Assembly: GCA_944363605.1 (NCBI GenBank)
Contig: CALVUM010000079.1
Location: forward strand, 1 to 32,659
Origin: an uncultured Bacilli bacterium
GTDB taxonomy: Bacteria; Bacillota_I; Bacilli_A; RF39; UBA660
Length of the DNA: 32,659 bases
Direction of reading: 5' to 3'
A program made the position numbers and the translations under genes. Below the pieces are notes generated by a model, which saw only the letters and a list, made by a program, of their open reading frames with translations, was not told the origin of the DNA and searched no databases. This document shows positions 3,645 to 12,331 of this stretch, piece after piece. The number at the start of each line of letters is the position of its first letter. The stretch's first letter is position 1.

Positions 3645-5594
3645 CTAATCATCTAAAGCAGGCTCACCAGGTGTACTTGATGTATCCTCATCATCAGGCG
3701 TAGTTGGTTTATTGTCATTTTCCTCGTTTTCGTTAGAGGAATCAGAATCATCGGGATCAGTACTAGGTTCTTCTGGAGTACCGGGAATAGTTGGTTCCTT
3801 CTCATCATCTGGTTCTTTAGAAGGATCTTCAATTGGTTCTTCAGGATCATCATCTGTAGGCTCATTTTCATCTATAGAAGGCTCGCTAGGCTGAGGATCT
3901 TCCTCTGGTTCTGGATCTGGAGTAGGAGGATTTGTTACAGAACTATCTGGAACTTTTCCGCCAGAATAAATTCCTTTACCAATAATCTCGCTATCTTGTT
4001 CATAATCTACAGAATAATCATAACTTAAAGTTTTAATTGTTTTTGGAGTAGATAATCCTAAATTTTCTTCCATTTCTTTCGTAATAGCATTTAAACTACC
4101 TTCATAATACCCTAGACAAGATAAACCATAAACATTAGAAAAGCTAAAATATGTAAGTTGCATTTTTTTAATTTCAATAAAATTATCTCCACTTAAAGCT
4201 CGTAGTAACATTCCTTTCAAAGATTGATAAAAAGACAGTATTTGAGAAGTACTCATATTTGTTGCAATATTTTTACTAATTGTATCCAAAAGATTTTCAA
4301 AATCACTAAAACTTGAAGTTTGAACAAGTTTCTTAGCAATGGCTTCAATAATTTGTTGTTGATGACGATTTCGCGCAATATCACTTTCTAAAAAACCATG
4401 ACGATTTCGCGCATAAGCTAATGCTTGTTCACCGTTTAAATGTTGCCATCCAGTATCCATACAAACCATATTGGTGTATGTTCGATCAGCTCCACTTTCA
4501 CATAGTCTTCCTTCACCATAAGTATTAATATAAGGTTTATAATCAGGCGCTTCGACATCAACATCAATTCCACCTAAAGTATTGACTAAATCAATAACCC
4601 CTTGAAAATTTACTTTTACAAAATAATCAATTTCAATATCTGTTAAATTCTCAATTGTATTTACCGTACTAGCAGTTCCATAAGCAGCCGAAGAATTGAT
4701 TTTACTTAATCCTAAATTTCTTCCAGAACTACTAATAATAGGGACATATAAATCCCTTGGAATACTAAACATTGTTGCTGTCAAAGTTTTGGGATTAAAA
4801 GTAATCAAAATCAATGTGTCGCCATTAAAAGCAGCATTGGCATCTAATCCATCAGTAGCTTCCGAATCAACGCCCATTACTAAAACTGTAAATGGTTCAG
4901 TTAAACTTTTTGTACTAACTAATAATTCACTTTCTTCCGTTTTCATTTCTTTAGAATACTCTTGAACAATTTTTGTTTCTGAAGCAATATTTTGATATTT
5001 TTCCTCACCACTATATAAAGTTACATAGTCTTTATTAATAAAAATCGCATCAACTTCGCCAGCGTATAAAGCATCGAGCATTTCCAAAGTATTATCATAA
5101 TATTCAATAGAATTAGAAATATTTTTTTTATTAATCATTTCCATTGGTAAAATATAGCCAGTTCGATCCTCTTCATCTGTAATCATTCCAATAGTGCTAT
5201 CTTTATCAAAAGCCGTAGAAGTAAGTGTGACTATTGCCGTGGTATATGTACTAGTTTCCTTTGCTGTAAAATTTTCAATCTTATTATATAACCGATCAAT
5301 ATAATAAGATGCAAAACTAAAAACTAAAGCAAATAAAAATGTAAAAACAGTTAATAAAATAAAACCAACTTTTTTATGTTGAAACATTTTTGTGAGTCCG
5401 AATATTGTATAAATAAGACCAAATATCGCGGCAACAACCAAAACAATAATTCGGATTACCGTTTCAATTCCAACAAGGGAAAGAACACTTTTACAAAAAA
5501 AGCCATAACTAACCCAATAAAGAATTAATGTAAGAAAATAAAAAATTTTCATTACCATATTTGCTCTTTTTAATTTTGAAAAAAATACTTTCAT
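3645..5594 (-). CDS. LytR-CpsA-Psr (LCP) family wall-polymer ligase
   Basis: LCP enzymes move undecaprenyl-linked glycopolymers onto peptidoglycan outside the membrane. The LCP domain spans about residues 234-425, with the conserved SIPRDL (Arg280, Asp281) and the NGEQALAYARNRH / SDIARNRHQQQ blocks (387-413) that hold the phosphate-binding Arg residues. Unlike the usual single anchor, the N-terminus has three predicted membrane segments (about 16-38, 46-67 and 77-98). Residues 115-215 form an extra domain resembling a piece of a type-3 solute-binding protein. The last 95 residues or so are a Pro/Asp/Glu/Ser/Thr-rich acidic tail without a sorting signal. Start ATG 5594 has AAAGGGTG just upstream; two earlier ATG codons in frame lack such a site. 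Its probable substrate is the polymer made by the locus to the right. Confidence 0.93.
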   Translation of the reverse strand: MKVFFSKLKRANMVMKIFYFLTLILYWVSYGFFCKSVLSLVGIETVIRIIVLVVAAIFGLIYTIFGLTKMFQHKKVGFILLTVFTFLFALVFSFASYYIDRLYNKIENFTAKETSTYTTAIVTLTSTAFDKDSTIGMITDEEDRTGYILPMEMINKKNISNSIEYYDNTLEMLDALYAGEVDAIFINKDYVTLYSGEEKYQNIASETKIVQEYSKEMKTEESELLVSTKSLTEPFTVLVMGVDSEATDGLDANAAFNGDTLILITFNPKTLTATMFSIPRDLYVPIISSSGRNLGLSKINSSAAYGTASTVNTIENLTDIEIDYFVKVNFQGVIDLVNTLGGIDVDVEAPDYKPYINTYGEGRLCESGADRTYTNMVCMDTGWQHLNGEQALAYARNRHGFLESDIARNRHQQQIIEAIAKKLVQTSSFSDFENLLDTISKNIATNMSTSQILSFYQSLKGMLLRALSGDNFIEIKKMQLTYFSFSNVYGLSCLGYYEGSLNAITKEMEENLGLSTPKTIKTLSYDYSVDYEQDSEIIGKGIYSGGKVPDSSVTNPPTPDPEPEEDPQPSEPSIDENEPTDDDPEEPIEDPSKEPDDEKEPTIPGTPEEPSTDPDDSDSSNENEENDNKPTTPDDEDTSSTPGEPALDD

Positions 5595-5633
5595 AAAACA
5601 CCCTTTCATATTCATTTAAAATATCTAACTAAA

Positions 5634-5730: not shown

Positions 5731-5757
5731 ATTGTCGAATACGAGGAGGATAGATGA

Positions 5758-7545
5758 ATGAAGTTTATAAAAAAAACATTTTCGCTTACAATGTCCATTG
5801 GAATTCTTTTTTTATCAATCACATCTTTTCTTCCAATTGCTAGTGCTGCAACCCAAGGAACTATTACTGGAAACGAAGTAAGATTTAGAAGCTCACCAAC
5901 TACAAACAGTTCTATCCTTGGTTATGTAAATAAAGGAGTTATAGTAAGTGTAACAAATACGAGTAAAATTGCTGGTGATGGATGTAGTGAAGGATGGTAC
6001 AGTGTCGATTATAATGGCAAAAGCGGATACATTTGCTCTAGTTATGTAGCTTTAGCTGGGGAAATCGTCAGTGCCTCTTACGGTAGACCATGGACAAGTC
6101 CTAAAAAAGCCATCATGGGAGGTGCCGATTTTTTAGCAAGTGATTATATTTCTCAAGGTCAAAATACCAGCTATCTTCAAAAATTTCAAGTGAATCCTAA
6201 TGCAACAAGTGCCTTATTTAATCATCAATATCAAACTGATATTCAAGCACCTAAATCAAAGGCAAGAATATCTTATAGTAGCTATAAAAGTAATGATTTA
6301 TTATCATTACCACTTCATTTCTATATTCCAATTTTTGAAAATATGCCAGAAGCCACTGCTCATCCACGAGATGGAGTAAAAAGTGGTGGAACAAGCATAG
6401 TTACAGATCAAGAATTTGAAGCACAACTTGATGCTCAGGGGTTTGATGAAAGCTATAAGAAATGGTTAAGAGAATTACATAACAAATATCCGAATTGGAC
6501 TTTTGAAGCTCTAAAGACAGGATTAGATTTTTATACTTCAGTGAATGAAGAACATAACGTGAGTTATATTCAAAAATCGAATTGTCAAGTATGTATTGAC
6601 CCGTCAAATCAATTAAAAGAGGGAAATGATTGGTATCTTGCAAGTACAGAATCGGTTGCATACTTTATGGATTCTAGAAATTTTCTGACAGAAGAATCTA
6701 TTTTAATGTTTGAAGATTTATCCAACAATCCCATTTATACAGAAGAAATTGTAAAAAGTGTTTTATCTAATACTTTCATGAATGGAAAAGATCCGATTGA
6801 TAATTTAGAATACTCAAGTATTTTTATGGAAGCCGGAAGAACTTATAATGTAAGTCCTGTTTATCTAGCTTCTTTGTCAAAACTGGAAGTTGGAACAACA
6901 GGAAGTGCAGCAGTAACTGGAGCACAATTTACATACAACGGACAAACATATATTGGATTTTATAACTTCTTTAACATTGGAGCTTATACAGGGGTTTATG
7001 ATGGATTACATTATGCAGCAGCTGGAGCCTCAATAAATAGTGATGGAATTTTTGTTGGAAATACTAGTGGAGATTCCTCTATACCAGTCGTCACTCCTGA
7101 AGAACCAAGTACCCCAAATGTAACACCAGTAGCTACTCATTTATCTAATATGGGGCTAAATAGAAAGGGAAGTTATATTACCAATTTAACTGTAAATGCT
7201 ACCGTTTCTTCCTTAAAAAATAAGACAAATTCATCTGAAGTGACTTTTAAAAATGCAAATGGAAATTTATTAGGAAATACAGAAAAAGTAACTACTGGTA
7301 CAACAATAACTTTTAGTACAGGAGAAACCTATACAGTCGTTATCTACGGCGATCTTACAGGAGATGGAAACATTAATTCAGCTGATTTACTTAGAATGAG
7401 ACAGTATCTACTAGGTCAAGTGAATTTATCAGGTGCCTATTTAGAGGCTGCAAAATTAGCCAATACAACAGGTAATATTAACTCAGCCGATTTATTAAGA
7501 CTTAGACAGTATTTACTTGGTCAAAAAGGAATTAACCAAGCATAG
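5758..7545 (+). CDS. Secreted SH3b / glucosaminidase-like / dockerin protein, hydrolase halves permuted
   Basis: A signal peptide (1-30, cleavage after Ala-Ser-Ala) is followed by an SH3b domain (about 36-100). Residues 105-198 match what is normally the C-terminal half of LytD-like glucosaminidases: GRPWTSPKKAI, YISQGQNTSYLQKF, an NHQY motif and IPIFENMP. Residues 228-425 match the N-terminal and catalytic half: LHNKYPNWTF, AGRTYNVSPVYLAS, probable catalytic Glu377 in KLEVG, and YNFFNIGA. A linker rich in Pro and Thr (about 436-462), a beta module (463-530) and a type I dockerin (531-592) end the protein. The first dockerin loop, GDLTGDGNINSADLL, is complete; the second repeat has lost its leading Gly-Asp. 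Expected role: cleavage of peptidoglycan glycan strands at the surface while docked on a cohesin. The gene is 12 bases from its downstream partner. Confidence 0.88.
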   Translation: MKFIKKTFSLTMSIGILFLSITSFLPIASAATQGTITGNEVRFRSSPTTNSSILGYVNKGVIVSVTNTSKIAGDGCSEGWYSVDYNGKSGYICSSYVALAGEIVSASYGRPWTSPKKAIMGGADFLASDYISQGQNTSYLQKFQVNPNATSALFNHQYQTDIQAPKSKARISYSSYKSNDLLSLPLHFYIPIFENMPEATAHPRDGVKSGGTSIVTDQEFEAQLDAQGFDESYKKWLRELHNKYPNWTFEALKTGLDFYTSVNEEHNVSYIQKSNCQVCIDPSNQLKEGNDWYLASTESVAYFMDSRNFLTEESILMFEDLSNNPIYTEEIVKSVLSNTFMNGKDPIDNLEYSSIFMEAGRTYNVSPVYLASLSKLEVGTTGSAAVTGAQFTYNGQTYIGFYNFFNIGAYTGVYDGLHYAAAGASINSDGIFVGNTSGDSSIPVVTPEEPSTPNVTPVATHLSNMGLNRKGSYITNLTVNATVSSLKNKTNSSEVTFKNANGNLLGNTEKVTTGTTITFSTGETYTVVIYGDLTGDGNINSADLLRMRQYLLGQVNLSGAYLEAAKLANTTGNINSADLLRLRQYLLGQKGINQA

Positions 7546-7557
7546 AAAAGAGGTAAA

Positions 7558-9117
7558 ATGAAAAATTTTAACAAAATATTATTTTCAATTATGTGTTTTT
7601 TTACAGGAATAATTTTTGCTAATGCAGCACCTACATACAGTTTTTACACTGGAGCAAGTTCCATTGAAGTGGGTTCTTCAGTTACAGCAACAATCCAACT
7701 GAAAAATGTTGCTTCATGGAACATAACAATTAAAAGTAGTGGGTCAACAAGTGGTTGTACTACTTCTTTTGCAGACGCTACGGCAGATGCAGCCAATACA
7801 ACAAAATATCTTTCAGTAACTTGCAAATCAACAAGTACTGGAGCAATTGGTTTTACAGTTACTGGGGATGCGACTAGCCAAGATGGAACTACAACATCGA
7901 TAAACGCATCACGTACAGTTTCTGTAACTACAGCCCGCGAAAAAGACAGCAATAATTATTTAAAAAGCATTGGCGTAACGGGTTATACATTAACTCCTGA
8001 ATTTAATCAAGATACCGTGGAATATACAGTAGAAGTACCAAATACTGTAGATAAAGTTACTCTAGAGGCTTCAGCAGCAAGTGGATATGCCATGGTATTT
8101 GGAACTGGTGAAGTAGAAGTAAATGAAGGAGCAAATACATTTGAAATTAAAGTTACAAGCGAGACAGGTGTTGAGCGAATTTATAAAATCACTGTTAATG
8201 TCAAAGATGAAAATCCAATAAATATCAAAATAAATAATACAGAGTACACGATTATGAAAAATGTAAAAAATGTTGAAATTCCATCTACTTATGAAGCCAC
8301 AACTGTAAATATTAACAATTTTGATATTCCAGCATTTCAAAGTGCTACTTCCGGTTTTACATTAGTCAGTGTCAAAGACAGTAAAGGAGACCAATATTTT
8401 GCCATTTATGATGCGGAAAAAAACACTTATGAACTTTATAACGAAAATCAGTCAAATCAACTACTATTATATATACTACCAATTGATTCAGAATTTGAAG
8501 GATTTACAAAAACAAAAATTACTATTTTAGAAGAGTCTTACGAAGCCTTAAAAGCAAATACAGAAGATGTGTATATAATTTATGCTATGGATATTGTCAC
8601 AGGTAAGAAAAATTATTATCTATATGATAAAGAGAATAATTCATACACTCTTTATAATGAAAATTGGATAAATACGTATACAGAACAATTAAAAAAATAT
8701 AAAATAGGTATTTTAGGTTTTGGAGGCCTTTGCATTTTTTGCTTAATTATTATTACAATACAAGCAATTAAAAGTCCGAAGAAAAAGAAAGAAAAAAAAC
8801 AAAAAGAAGTAAAAATAGAAGAGCCAATAATCAAAGAGGAAAAGAAAGAAAAACAAAAGAAGGGCAACCAAAAAAATTCAAAAGAATCAAAAAAAGTAAC
8901 TGAAGAAATTCCATTTCCAACCAAGTTAACAAATGAAGAAGCAATGAAAAAAATGGATGATGTAACTAAAATGATTGAAGATTATGAAAAAACAGTTACT
9001 TTAAATAAAAAAGATTTAGAAGCGGCCAAATCAAAAGAGAAAAAAGAAGAAGTACCAGAAGAAACTATGTTTGATATTTTAGGCGATGGCAAGAAGAAAA
9101 AAAAGAAAAAGAAATAA
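7558..9117 (+). CDS. Membrane-anchored surface protein, cohesin-like region plus cadherin-like domain
   Basis: A signal peptide ends near residue 23. Residues 25-127 form a beta-rich region whose start (SIEVGSSVTATIQLKNV) resembles cohesin domains, although it is shorter than a classical cohesin. Residues 132-217 match the Cadherin-like beta-sandwich family (PF12733): YLKSIGVTGYTLTPEF, then VEYTVEVP and ERIYKITVNV. Two related segments near 270-295 and 340-369 share D-x(3-4)-Y-x-LY-D and LYNEN patterns. One membrane helix (383-404) precedes a highly charged Lys/Glu-rich cytoplasmic tail ending in eight Lys, with a possible coiled coil near 455-495. SD AGAGG before ATG 7558 and a gap of 12 bases show cotranscription with the dockerin hydrolase. 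I infer that it tethers that hydrolase to the membrane; the cohesin assignment is tentative. Confidence 0.8.
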   Translation: MKNFNKILFSIMCFFTGIIFANAAPTYSFYTGASSIEVGSSVTATIQLKNVASWNITIKSSGSTSGCTTSFADATADAANTTKYLSVTCKSTSTGAIGFTVTGDATSQDGTTTSINASRTVSVTTAREKDSNNYLKSIGVTGYTLTPEFNQDTVEYTVEVPNTVDKVTLEASAASGYAMVFGTGEVEVNEGANTFEIKVTSETGVERIYKITVNVKDENPINIKINNTEYTIMKNVKNVEIPSTYEATTVNINNFDIPAFQSATSGFTLVSVKDSKGDQYFAIYDAEKNTYELYNENQSNQLLLYILPIDSEFEGFTKTKITILEESYEALKANTEDVYIIYAMDIVTGKKNYYLYDKENNSYTLYNENWINTYTEQLKKYKIGILGFGGLCIFCLIIITIQAIKSPKKKKEKKQKEVKIEEPIIKEEKKEKQKKGNQKNSKESKKVTEEIPFPTKLTNEEAMKKMDDVTKMIEDYEKTVTLNKKDLEAAKSKEKKEEVPEETMFDILGDGKKKKKKKK

Positions 9118-9135: not shown

Positions 9136-9176
9136 ACTTTAGTAAATGATAAGATAATAATAACGAGGTGGTAAAA

Positions 9177-10424
9177 ATGGCAGCAAATAAAAAGATTCAT
9201 AAATTAATTTATTACTTTCTTCTTATCATGCCTTTCATTGATCTATTTTCATCTATAGCTACTTGGAACAATTGGCCGAGTATTGGTTTAGCCTTCAAAG
9301 GAATTTTCCTATTATTTGCTATTTTTTCTTTAATAAAAAATGAAAAAAAATGTTGGAAATATTTCATTGCAATTACTATTTATAGCATAATAAGCTTATG
9401 GATAAATAGTCAAAATGGCTCCCTTTTTCAAGAAGTATCAAATCTGATAAAAATCTTTTATTTACCAACCCTCATTCTTTATTTTGCGAATGCAGTAAAT
9501 CCTTATTTAAATCCCAAACTAATCACTCAAATATCAGTTTTATATCTACTAATCTATTTAATTCCCTATCCCTTTAATTTAGGGCATAACATTAATGAAA
9601 TTTATCCAAATAAAAATCTTTATCTTTCCTATTTTTATATCGGAAATGAATTAGCGAATATTTTTATTCTTCTAATACCCATTGCTTTTACGTATTTATA
9701 TCATCAAAAGAAAAAAAGAAATCTAATTTTATATAGTCTATTAGTCTTAAGTATGTTAGCTTTGTTAGGAACCAAAACGATGTATTTAAGTGTAATTTTA
9801 ATTGTCCTTTTCTTCCTTTATGTAAATCGTCAAAAAGTGTTATCAACAATAAAAAAACACCGTTCGATTTTTTTAACGGGCTTTATTATAGGCATAGTAG
9901 GAACCGTTATAATACTACCTAAAACAGCTTTCTATCAAAATATTAGTACTTCATTAGATTACTATAAAATTAGTTCCATAGGAGAACTTATTTCTATCGA
10001 AAATATTGATAATATCATTTATAGTAATCGTCTCGATTTTTTGGCAAACATTCACCAAGAATATATAAAAAGTCCCTTAATAAATCAATTTTTTGGTATT
10101 GGTCGAAGTAAAATTTTAGCAAGTAAAGATATTGAAATCGACATTTTTGACATTTTCTATAGTATTGGTATAATAGGATTTGTCCTTTATATTTTTTATA
10201 GTATTTTTGCTTTACGTCAAAAAAAATTGTCTATGTTATATAAATTTCTACTAATCCTATTAATAATTATTTCCCTTTTCAGTGGCCATGTACTAATAAG
10301 CCCGATGGTCTCAACTTACTTAGCCTTATTGTATGGATTAAATGAAGAAAAGAAAGGAGCAAAAGAGAATGAAACCGTGGACCAAAGACCAATTAAAAAG
10401 ATTAAGAATCGCTTTAATGCTTAA
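9177..10424 (+). CDS. O-antigen ligase/polymerase-like membrane protein
   Basis: A 415-aa polytopic membrane protein with about ten hydrophobic segments. It shows the pattern of the O-antigen ligase / Wzy-like family: a large loop (about 245-330) followed by FFGIGRSK, a DIFDIFYSIGIIGF block and a late FSGHVLISP segment. Such proteins join or polymerise lipid-linked glycans on the outer face of the membrane. The central part of the fusion protein at 12328-14916 is clearly related (KGI, LPTLILYF-like, FFGI/IFGI, DIFY-x-G-x-x-GF/FG and GH-x-L blocks line up), so this is a paralogue. Start ATG 9177 follows GAGGTGG (9165-9171); the in-frame GTG 9168 lies inside that site. The last 56 bases overlap the acetyltransferase. 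Whether it acts as polymerase or ligase cannot be told from sequence. Confidence 0.75.
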   Translation: MAANKKIHKLIYYFLLIMPFIDLFSSIATWNNWPSIGLAFKGIFLLFAIFSLIKNEKKCWKYFIAITIYSIISLWINSQNGSLFQEVSNLIKIFYLPTLILYFANAVNPYLNPKLITQISVLYLLIYLIPYPFNLGHNINEIYPNKNLYLSYFYIGNELANIFILLIPIAFTYLYHQKKKRNLILYSLLVLSMLALLGTKTMYLSVILIVLFFLYVNRQKVLSTIKKHRSIFLTGFIIGIVGTVIILPKTAFYQNISTSLDYYKISSIGELISIENIDNIIYSNRLDFLANIHQEYIKSPLINQFFGIGRSKILASKDIEIDIFDIFYSIGIIGFVLYIFYSIFALRQKKLSMLYKFLLILLIIISLFSGHVLISPMVSTYLALLYGLNEEKKGAKENETVDQRPIKKIKNRFNA

Positions 10425-10908
10425 CAGCGACAAACGAAATAAGTATTTAAAAAAACATCAAATATTTAAAGAAATGGGTGAGAATGTTTTCTTTCAACCA
10501 CGATTTATTCCATCAGATCCCAAATTAATTAAATTTCATAACAACATCATTGTCACAAGCAATGTAACTTTTGTTACCCACGATATTTTTCATTTAGGAT
10601 TAAACCAACTAAATCAAGGAGAATTTAGTTATGAACAAAATTGTATTGAAATAATGGACAACGTATTTATCGGATGTAATTCAACCATTTTAGGAAATAC
10701 CAAAATAGGCCCGAATGCTGTGATTGCCGCGGGAACCGTAGTTACAAAAGATGTTTTACCAAATACAGTGGTTGCTGGAAATCCTGCAAAAGTTATCGGT
10801 ACATTTGAAGAGTATATAAATAAACGGAAAAATAATCCCAAAACTTTGGATAAAGAAGTACTGTGGCAACAATTTACTGAAGAAAAAAAGAAATCAGATA
10901 CCATATAA
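10369..10908 (+). CDS. Hexapeptide-repeat (LbH) O-acetyltransferase
   Basis: A 179-aa left-handed beta-helix acyltransferase of the CatB/NodL/maltose-acetyltransferase type. The catalytic His is His71 in FVTHDIFH. The C-terminal coils show hexapeptide periodicity from IMDNVFIGCNSTILG through KIGPNAVIAAGTVVTKDV to the closing VAGNPAKVIG. The start is ATG 10369, nine bases after AAAGGAG (10353-10359). An earlier in-frame ATG at 10342 lies upstream of that site. It overlaps the ligase-like gene by 56 bases, which implies coupled translation, so it probably acetylates a sugar of the polymer handled by that protein. The acceptor is unknown. Confidence 0.9.
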   Translation: MKPWTKDQLKRLRIALMLNSDKRNKYLKKHQIFKEMGENVFFQPRFIPSDPKLIKFHNNIIVTSNVTFVTHDIFHLGLNQLNQGEFSYEQNCIEIMDNVFIGCNSTILGNTKIGPNAVIAAGTVVTKDVLPNTVVAGNPAKVIGTFEEYINKRKNNPKTLDKEVLWQQFTEEKKKSDTI

Positions 10909-10946
10909 TTTAAATAATAAAATAACAAATAAAATGACCTAAAGTG

Positions 10947-10976
10947 ATAGAATTTTTCGTTTTAATTCTATGTTTT
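10947..10976 (+). terminator. Hairpin after the acetyltransferase gene
   Basis: ATAGAATT (10947-10954) pairs with AATTCTAT (10964-10971) over a 9-base loop and is followed by GTTTT. The T tail is short, so it may be a weak terminator. Confidence 0.5.
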
Positions 10977-10996
10977 CGTGACAATGAAAAGAAGGA

Positions 10997-11176
10997 ATGT
11001 TAACATTTAATACAAACCATTTATTTGTTTATGGAGCGAATAATGTAGTTGTAAATGAAGAAAATCCTCAAACAAAAGATAACATCATCACTATCTTAAG
11101 TGTGCTTGGAGTCGCAACTTTAGTTATGATAATCCTTGGTAGCAACTTTGCAAGAAAAATCAAAGAAAATAATTAA
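10997..11176 (+). CDS. Orphan 59-codon ORF with a sortase-type sorting signal (possible remnant)
   Basis: The ORF encodes 59 residues. Residues 22-59 form the layout of a cell-wall sorting signal: an NPQTKD motif (23-28), a hydrophobic stretch (about 29-48) and a positively charged tail with ARKIKEN. NPQT-type motifs are known for class B-like sortases, and NPxTG/NPxTN-like motifs occur in several Bacillota. There is no signal peptide, so as it stands the product could not be exported by Sec. A stop codon lies in frame 12 bases upstream of ATG 10997, and GAAGGA directly abuts the ATG, which is too close for good initiation. It may be the last piece of a decayed surface-protein gene, or a real small protein. 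A strong terminator follows. No sortase gene is in the window. Confidence 0.45.
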   Translation: MLTFNTNHLFVYGANNVVVNEENPQTKDNIITILSVLGVATLVMIILGSNFARKIKENN

Positions 11177-11193
11177 CATAAGGAAAAAAATTT

Positions 11194-11222
11194 ACAGAAA
11201 CAAAGACGTGTTTCTGTTTTTT
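11194..11222 (+). terminator. Strong terminator before tagO
   Basis: ACAGAAACA (11194-11202) pairs perfectly with TGTTTCTGT (11209-11217) around a 6-base loop, followed by T 11217-11222. Confidence 0.88.
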
Positions 11223-11237
11223 CTTGGAAAAATAAGG

Positions 11238-11243
11238 TATAAT
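11238..11243 (+). promoter_or_regulatory. -10 element of the tagO promoter
   Basis: A perfect TATAAT preceded by AAGG. No good -35 exists at 16-18 bases, because that position falls in the T tail of the preceding terminator. The tagO start lies 23 bases downstream, with AAGGAG at 11254-11259. Confidence 0.55.
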
Positions 11244-11266
11244 AAGAAATAACAAGGAGTGGTAGT

Positions 11267-12331
11267 ATGCGCTTAGAAGTCAATATAACAAATATTTTGT
11301 TGATGATCGCGACAACTTTTATTTTTAGTTTAATCTTAGTACCTATTTGTAAAAAAATTGCTTTTCATATCGGAGCAATTGATTATCCAAATAAACGAAG
11401 ATTAAATAAAGTACCAATGCCAACCATTGGTGGACTAGCAGTCTTTATTTCTTTTCTATTTGGATACATGATTTTTGGTCGTGGAACGACCGAAATGATT
11501 TCTATTTTAATAGCTAGTTTCATTATCCTAATGGTAGGACTCATTGATGATATTAAGCCCATCAGTGCAAAATACCAACTAATTGGTCAAATAGTTGCTG
11601 TTTTAATTATAATTTTATACGGAAAAATTACCATTGATGACGTTACCATATTAGGCGCTCATTTTGTTTTTCCAACACCTCTAAACTATCTAATCACATT
11701 AATTTTTATGGTTGGAATTATCAATGCCATTGATTTGTCCGATGGTATGGATGGCCTAAGTAGTGGCATCAGCATTATTTACTTTTTAACGATTACGATC
11801 ATTGCCACGATTATTGGGGGCGGGAAACTTGGAAACATGGATACGACAATTGCGATTCTTATGATTGGCTCCCTATTAGGCTTCTTAGTTTATAATTTTC
11901 CACCAGCTAAAATATATATAGGAGACTCAGGTAGTAACTTCATGGGACTTATGGTCGCGACAACCGCACTTTACGGTTTTAAATTAGCCACATTTACATC
12001 CCTTCTAATCCCGCTTGCTATCCTTGCCACACCAATTATCGATGTTTTATTTTCAATAATTAGACGAAGCTTAAAAAAGCAAAACCCTTTTACCAATCCT
12101 GATAAAGAACATCTCCATCATCAATTATTAAAAATGAAATTTTCAACAAAAACTTCTCTTTTAATTATCTATACAATAAATCTTTGCTTTTCTGCTGTTT
12201 CCATTCTTTATGCTTTAGGTGACATCACCTACGCTTTAATTCTCTATTTTGCTTTAATGATTATCTTCTTATTTATTGTTTTAAAAACGGATATTCTATT
12301 TCCTAAACGAGAAAAGGGGAAGAAAAAATGA
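11267..12331 (+). CDS. tagO: Undecaprenyl-phosphate N-acetylhexosamine-1-phosphate transferase (TagO/WecA family)
   Basis: A polytopic membrane enzyme (354 aa, about ten helices) that starts wall-polysaccharide synthesis by moving GlcNAc-1-P (or a related sugar phosphate) from UDP-sugar to undecaprenyl phosphate. Diagnostic motifs in order are GLIDDIKP with the Asp pair near residue 91, NAIDLSDGMDGL near 152-163, GDSGSNFMG near 226 and the HLHHQLL cytoplasmic loop near 284, which fits the HIHH-type signature of WecA/TagO rather than MraY. The N-terminal PNKRRLNKVPMPTIGG block is also typical. AAGGAG is seven bases before the ATG. The last four bases overlap the following fusion gene (ATGA), so both form an operon. 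The exact sugar is not shown by sequence. Confidence 0.93.
   Translation: MRLEVNITNILLMIATTFIFSLILVPICKKIAFHIGAIDYPNKRRLNKVPMPTIGGLAVFISFLFGYMIFGRGTTEMISILIASFIILMVGLIDDIKPISAKYQLIGQIVAVLIIILYGKITIDDVTILGAHFVFPTPLNYLITLIFMVGIINAIDLSDGMDGLSSGISIIYFLTITIIATIIGGGKLGNMDTTIAILMIGSLLGFLVYNFPPAKIYIGDSGSNFMGLMVATTALYGFKLATFTSLLIPLAILATPIIDVLFSIIRRSLKKQNPFTNPDKEHLHHQLLKMKFSTKTSLLIIYTINLCFSAVSILYALGDITYALILYFALMIIFLFIVLKTDILFPKREKGKKK

Follow-up and report, generated by a model that had tools for sequence, protein, structure and literature searches.

A dockerin-bearing wall hydrolase and a membrane receptor with a cohesin-derived domain: a probable dedicated pair in uncultured gut Bacilli

Two adjacent genes of an uncultured Bacilli bacterium very probably encode a dedicated, one-to-one, noncellulosomal cohesin-dockerin pair that tethers a wall hydrolase to the membrane. 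The genes lie on contig CALVUM010000079.1 (C79) of assembly GCA_944363605.1, which was analyzed whole as a single window of 32,659 nucleotides; the source genome amounts to 1.5 Mb and is 69.5% complete. The first open reading frame (ORF1) encodes a putative secreted glucosaminidase with a type I dockerin at its C terminus, and the second (ORF2) encodes a membrane protein whose first domain is predicted to receive that dockerin. We infer the binding itself from predicted docking and from covariation between the two domains; its calcium dependence, the activity of the enzyme, and the purpose of the tethering are likewise inferred. The features of the two genes are as follows (aa, amino acids).

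5758..7545, +, ORF1, 595 aa: secreted SH3, permuted SagB-like glucosaminidase, linker module, and type I dockerin
5758..5850, +, signal-peptide-like start of ORF1, aa 1-31, read from the sequence
5878..6048, +, SH3_3 domain, aa 41-97 (Pfam, 41.3 bits)
6067..6360, +, C-terminal half of a SagB/AtlE-type glucosaminidase fold, placed first in ORF1 (SagB and autolysin E matches)
6448..7053, +, N-terminal half of the glucosaminidase, placed second in ORF1 (SagB and AtlA matches)
7105..7341, +, linker beta module before the dockerin, aa about 450-528 (sequence; found in homologues too)
7345..7518, +, type I dockerin, aa 530-587 (Dockerin_1, PF00404, 41.8 bits versus a Pfam cutoff of 22.9)
7558..9117, +, ORF2, membrane receptor, 519 aa
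7558..7626, +, signal-peptide-like start of ORF2, aa 1-23, read from the sequence
7630..7938, +, N-terminal beta domain (N-domain), aa 25-127, a remodeled cohesin predicted to bind the dockerin (profiles, covariation, models)
7960..8199, +, cadherin-like beta-sandwich, aa 135-214 (PF12733, 37.3 bits)
8206..8691, +, family-specific membrane-proximal region, aa 217-378, conserved across the receptor family
8698..8769, +, single membrane helix, aa about 381-404 (hydrophobicity; position shared with homologues)
8770..9114, +, basic cytoplasmic tail with an ETM(Y/F)DI(L/F) motif conserved in the genus (homologue comparison)

Predicted docking of the dockerin with ORF2

ORF2 starts 12 bases past the TAG stop codon of ORF1 and in the same frame; AAAGAGG precedes its start, and GAGGAGG (positions 5743 to 5749) lies ahead of the start of ORF1. 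An earlier note, made from the letters of the DNA alone, had placed the two frames at these positions, had ended the first in a type I dockerin with a degenerate second repeat, and had given the second a single membrane helix followed by a basic cytoplasmic tail, and all of these readings held up. The model of the dockerin has the duplicated repeats and the dockerin fold, matching 4fl4_G with a Z score of 11.0 and a root mean square deviation (RMSD) of 1.7 over 65 of 67 residues. Calcium ligands were not complete in both loops: loop 1 (DLTGDGNINSAD) is canonical and complete, and loop 2 (LANTTGNINSAD) is degenerate, with positions 1 and 5 lacking their acidic residues. Between the two repeats, the helix segments are nevertheless 16/17 identical, and in dockerins generally these segments share 72% identity within one dockerin versus 35% between dockerins. 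Because the segments are kept nearly identical, two-way binding is probably retained in the window's genus despite the degenerate loop 2. Elsewhere among the relatives, three tandem dockerin matches of equal score were seen in one 327-aa frame (G039:C4:102723-103238).

Since ORF1 and ORF2 share one frame, reading the TAG stop codon as glycine gives a natural fusion in which the signal peptide of ORF2 serves as the linker. The earlier note had suggested structure prediction of the dockerin with ORF2 residues 25 to 127 as a check, and a prediction made on this read-through fusion is in keeping with docking. AlphaFold2 gave the dockerin plus N-domain fusion (205 residues, 24 of them disordered) a predicted local distance difference test score (pLDDT) of 87.5 and a predicted template modeling score (pTM) of 0.80, with the dockerin and the N-domain mostly at pLDDT values of 87 to 98, and a fusion that also took in the cadherin-like domain reached a pLDDT of 92.8 and a pTM of 0.78. 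By our own estimate, a randomly placed dockerin would give a pTM of about 0.52 (d0 5.3), and the dockerin is therefore placed with confidence in the model. The fusion model supports, and falls short of proving, an interface between the dockerin and the N-domain.

Conservation of the pair and exchange of the enzyme

A search of 196 related genomes for homologues of ORF2 (E <= 0.001) found matches in 103 of them, some being matches to the widespread cadherin-like domain alone. The relatives are draft genomes, so that absences in them are soft. In all 77 loci holding homologues of both genes, the two were co-directional and adjacent, with a gap of -29 to +30 bases, which shows that the pairing is not due to chance. 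Every ORF1 homologue with a readable C terminus ended in a dockerin except that of L107 (loci are labeled L### and genomes G###). The two domains also go missing together: alongside two receptors that lack the N-domain (L129 and L130), a dockerin gene was not found, a further locus (L133) being cut by a contig end and left out of this count. Both L129 and L130 lie near a homoserine succinyltransferase-like gene. By our tally, 31 genomes of the family hold exactly one dockerin, and in 29 it adjoins a receptor gene; in about 19 of these 29 draft genomes, no Pfam cohesin was found anywhere.

The enzyme beside the receptor is exchanged between lineages. In other families of the class, the dockerin-bearing partners beside the same receptor family are PF01832 (GH73) glucosaminidases, a GH25 lysozyme, and an Amidase_2 protein, and a metallo-beta-lactamase-fold protein also bears a dockerin there; within the window's own family, M6 peptidases carry the dockerin in some genomes. 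Four genomes hold two systems with different dockerin types (G015, with L056 and L143; G185, with L114 and L116; G412, with L137 and L138; and G472, with L141 and L142), and one two-system genome, G073 (L115 and L117), is an exception. Differing types within one genome are as expected if cross-talk is avoided.

The neighborhood of the pair in the window holds genes for wall polymers on either side.

3645..5615, -, LytR-CpsA-Psr wall-polymer ligase, divergent (Pfam, 138.8 bits)
9168..12331, +, O-antigen-ligase-like, hexapeptide acyltransferase, and TagO/WecA-like genes (wall glycopolymer cluster)

The divergent ligase gene accompanies the pair in many relatives and lies upstream in most loci of the window's genus, and wall glycopolymer genes often follow the pair. 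This setting bears on what the pair is for. The two proteins might bind each other and yet have a role other than remodeling of the cell's own wall, namely, display of a secreted enzyme that digests walls or matrix of foreign origin in the gut, and the M6 peptidase and metallo-beta-lactamase-fold partners of some loci speak for such a role. We consider it unlikely, although not negligibly so, since most partners are peptidoglycan hydrolases, since the pair in the window's genus stands beside the LytR-CpsA-Psr ligase and wall glycopolymer genes, and since a membrane anchor positions the enzyme beneath the wall.

Covariation and joint replacement of the two domains

Distances between dockerins were compared with distances between N-domains in partial Mantel tests that held the linker, cadherin-like, membrane-proximal, and catalytic segments constant; such tests use pairwise distances with related sequences as replicates, which permutation P values correct only partly. 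The partial correlation of dockerin with N-domain was 0.42 over 71 pairs (P = 0.0005), and it was 0.65 in the window's genus and 0.58 outside it (both P = 0.001). For the dockerin and the linker module adjacent to it, the values were 0.11 (all), 0.03 (genus), and 0.01 (outside), and for the signal peptide that lies between the two domains they were 0.11, 0.12, and 0.20 when paired with the dockerin and close to 0 when paired with the N-domain. The covariation is clearest inside the family. Classes of dockerin and N-domain, assigned by motif and by eye with hand corrections, agreed in 71 of 78 pairs; we trust the distance test more, because the classes were set after both columns had been seen. 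The catalytic-domain tree shows 15 changes of class for the N-domain and 14 for the dockerin, and in no independent contrast are the two opposed, although the contrasts are too few for significance alone.

Three pairs of loci, each from closely related species, display the exchange directly. In L127 and L144, from two species of one genus, the enzyme (87% identical), linker (91%), cadherin-like domain (92%), and membrane-proximal region (82%) are nearly the same, whereas the dockerins share only 42% and the N-domains 33% identity. The corresponding values for L128 and L134 are 87, 86, and 93% for the enzyme, linker, and cadherin-like domain versus 49% for the dockerin and 52% for the N-domain, and those for L044 and L045 are 85, 71, and 80% versus 38 and 38%. 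The boundaries of the replaced tract appear to coincide with those of the dockerin and the N-domain.

Because the intervening signal peptides of the three swapped pairs differ too (26, 40, and 48% identity), replacement of both domains as a single tract is possible, and we weighed whether the covariation might be hitchhiking, in which the end of the dockerin and the start of the N-domain are swapped as one recombination tract with no selected interaction, as in variable surface antigens. In most loci only a spacer and the signal peptide separate the two domains, which would favor such swaps. The explanation nevertheless seems very improbable to us: neither the linker module nor the intervening signal peptide tracks the dockerin/N-domain pair in the distance tests, the concerted evolution of the dockerin repeats is what a binding surface would show, and the class match persists where the receptor gene comes first. 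The last point concerns the M6 peptidase loci L122 and L143, in which the dockerin and the N-domain are both of the class C type and, in L122, some 4 kb apart. We judged linkage insufficient as the sole cause of the covariation, given the signal peptide and linker module tests. The central claim of the earlier note, that the dockerin binds the first domain of ORF2, is thus supported by adjacency, covariation, joint replacement, enzyme exchange, joint absence, and the fused model, which together make binding probable.

Cohesin ancestry of the N-domain

The N-domain of the window has eight strands in the AlphaFold2 model (aa 26 to 124) and no direct sequence match to a cohesin. The Pfam scan of aa 25 to 127 gave no match to the cohesin model (PF00963; cutoff, 24.1 bits), direct sequence searches of Pfam, NCBIfam, and PDB with the same residues returned nothing useful, a profile of the window class (A4) found only designed coiled coils and titin in PDB, and a class C profile had no matches there. 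A link to cohesins was found through the sister genera, whose class B N-domains carry a GSWxFxIxYDxSxLxL pattern and in two cases exceed the Pfam cohesin cutoff (L088, 25.7 bits; L090, 24.8 bits). The first 19 PDB hits of the class B profile (A5) were all cohesins (best E value, 1.6e-6). In hhalign comparisons, class B matched a profile of true cohesins (A7, nearly all from the same bacterial family) with a probability of 96% along its length, the window class matched class B with 95% along its length, and class C matched class B with 97%, while the cadherin-like domain, used as a control, gave 0.1% and 0.5%. The direct match of the window class to true cohesins was weak (23%). Because class B links the two, we concluded from the profiles that the window N-domain is cohesin derived, that is, that it descends from or shares ancestry with cohesins and has drifted, and that it is not a canonical cohesin. 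The earlier note had called this region cohesin-like, which stands by descent through class B and fails by direct test. Fold searches with N-domain models brought up tied Ig-like folds, with no single family prominent.

Pfam cohesin matches elsewhere in the source genome were confined to contigs C26 and C38. The C38 match (E = 0.05, in a small lipoprotein-like ORF) was dismissed, and the C26 match scored 23.4 bits, just below the cutoff, in a protein that carries its own dockerin in the same chain (L120, that is, G000:C26, a 1,323-aa open frame with hydrophobic segments between cohesin and dockerin, read in L001). Many relatives also have large proteins, about 2,400 aa long, that include a Pfam cohesin and are perhaps a separate cohesin-dockerin system. 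That the ORF1 dockerin has its partner in a different cohesin of the genome, such as the C26 protein, ORF2 being a mere neighbor with an unrelated adhesive domain, has in our view only a slim chance: the C26 domain is nearer to the Pfam cohesin model than ORF2 is and the genome is incomplete, but C26 bears its own dockerin, about 19 related genomes hold one ORF1-type dockerin and no Pfam cohesin, and covariation and joint replacement indicate ORF2 as the partner. The earlier note had named a better cohesin elsewhere as grounds against its reading; on paper C26 is one, but against it stand its own dockerin and the related genomes in which no Pfam cohesin was found.

Proposed tethering and points against it

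We propose that the glucosaminidase is exported and that its C-terminal dockerin would plug into the cohesin-derived N-domain of ORF2. One helix would hold ORF2 to the outer side of the cytoplasmic membrane, and its cadherin-like and membrane-proximal domains would form a stalk. The peptidoglycan glucosaminidase would then be kept from diffusing away and would remain at the membrane, close to the nascent wall and to the synthesis of glycopolymers. We hold more tentatively, as a possibility somewhat short of an even chance, that such insulated plug-and-socket pairs run through the whole family, the cohesin being repeatedly remodeled into new classes, each replaced along with the matching dockerin as one specificity cassette, with enzyme and stalk unchanged, so that gut Bacilli could tether chosen wall hydrolases without cross-talk.

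Several observations weigh against a dedicated tethering pair. The support for binding is predictive and comparative, and the fused model holds both domains in one chain and was judged from the pLDDT and pTM of the window's own pair. In L107, a receptor with a cohesin-type domain stands beside a partner devoid of a dockerin, and in L109 and L067 the classes disagree. When distant enzyme families are included (92 pairs), the partial correlation of dockerin and N-domain drops to 0.29 (P = 0.002), and other correlations are higher (cad~mid, 0.44; enz~mid, 0.43; enz~X, 0.30). The two domains are neighbors on the DNA in most loci, so that their joint replacement could in part reflect shared recombination, and differing signal peptides in the swapped pairs are what one replaced tract would give. 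Finally, the Pfam cohesin model does not recognize the window N-domain, and in fold searches other Ig-like domains match it equally well.

The permuted glucosaminidase and the cytoplasmic tail

Both catalytic halves of a GH73/SagB glucosaminidase, with the putative catalytic glutamate, were found in ORF1, the halves being in swapped order. Residues 104 to 201 match SagB (6u0o) residues 198 to 262 and autolysin E residues 151 to 214, residues 231 to 432 match SagB residues 71 to 183 and residues 35 to 165 of an AtlA construct, and putative catalytic Glu377 (positions 6886 to 6888) aligns with the catalytic-region glutamate of SagB and AtlA. As read from these matches, the enzyme (positions 6067 to 7053) is circularly permuted, a feature absent from the earlier note. 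A script recognized the permuted order in 28 of 71 rows of the catalytic tree, which is an undercount as the pattern missed some; all of the rows recognized fall in one clade with the window, whereas the halves are in the usual order in sister genera. A single permutation, in the clade around the window's genus, seems to account for the rearrangement. A search of open-license PubMed Central literature found no report of a permuted GH73 enzyme. In L107, an SH3-like repeat is apparently inserted inside the catalytic domain of the glucosaminidase.

The tail of ORF2, about 115 aa long and rich in K and E, carries at its C-terminal end the ETM[YF]DI[LF] motif common to much of the genus, and because this motif is conserved, the tail suggests itself as a likely site for a cytosolic partner. 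An IIExYEKT segment of the tail (8770-9114) is also conserved in the genus, and tails are mostly short in other genera. HMMER matches of the tail to borealin, FAM176, and AmaP were set aside as low-complexity noise.

Comparison with known systems

Cohesin-dockerin recognition is best known from the digestion of plant fiber. If our reading is right, it also serves the cell's own wall in uncultured gut Bacilli with small genomes, where a membrane receptor retains a peptidoglycan hydrolase, and our search of open-license PubMed Central found no report of such a cohesin-dockerin wall-hydrolase system. The loci would supply nearly 100 natural cognate pairs, among them three in which the specificity is exchanged on a near-identical background. 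Such a set would suit studies of how partners change at these interfaces as well as the design of orthogonal connectors.

The pair resembles the cellulosomal type I pairs of Clostridium thermocellum and Ruminococcus in having a dockerin with paired near-identical helices and a cohesin-related partner. It differs in that ORF2 offers one receptor domain on one membrane protein to one enzyme, in that this partner domain has drifted past the Pfam model, and in that a wall hydrolase takes the place of plant-fiber enzymes; ORF2 has a single cohesin-type domain, no carbohydrate-binding module was found in the Pfam scan, and the partner is a putative glucosaminidase, so that the features of a cellulosome are lacking. 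In the fold search, the N-domain model matched noncellulosomal cohesins from glycoside hydrolases of Clostridium perfringens (2jh2, 2w1n, and 2vo8) over about 101 to 102 residues (Z scores of 8.8 to 9.4; RMSD, 2.7 to 2.8), tied with other Ig-like folds, among them complement C3 and transglutaminase domains. Those cohesins sit on enzymes, whereas ORF1 and ORF2 reverse the arrangement, with the dockerin on the enzyme and the cohesin-type domain on the receptor. In the cellulosome of Ruminococcus champanellensis, dockerin-bearing cell wall hydrolases have been reported as associating with scaffoldin cohesins (PMC6403190); wall hydrolases with dockerins are common to both systems, but here each enzyme has a dedicated neighboring receptor. 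In its logic, the proposed pair resembles the peptidoglycan release complex of Staphylococcus aureus, in which the membrane protein SpdC holds a SagB-type glucosaminidase in position (PMC10581084). As proposed for ORF1, whose catalytic halves match SagB, a glucosaminidase is held there by a separate membrane protein, but SagB is itself membrane associated and SpdC is a CAAX-protease homologue, whereas ORF1 and ORF2 would use a dockerin and a cohesin-derived receptor to hold a glucosaminidase that is circularly permuted.

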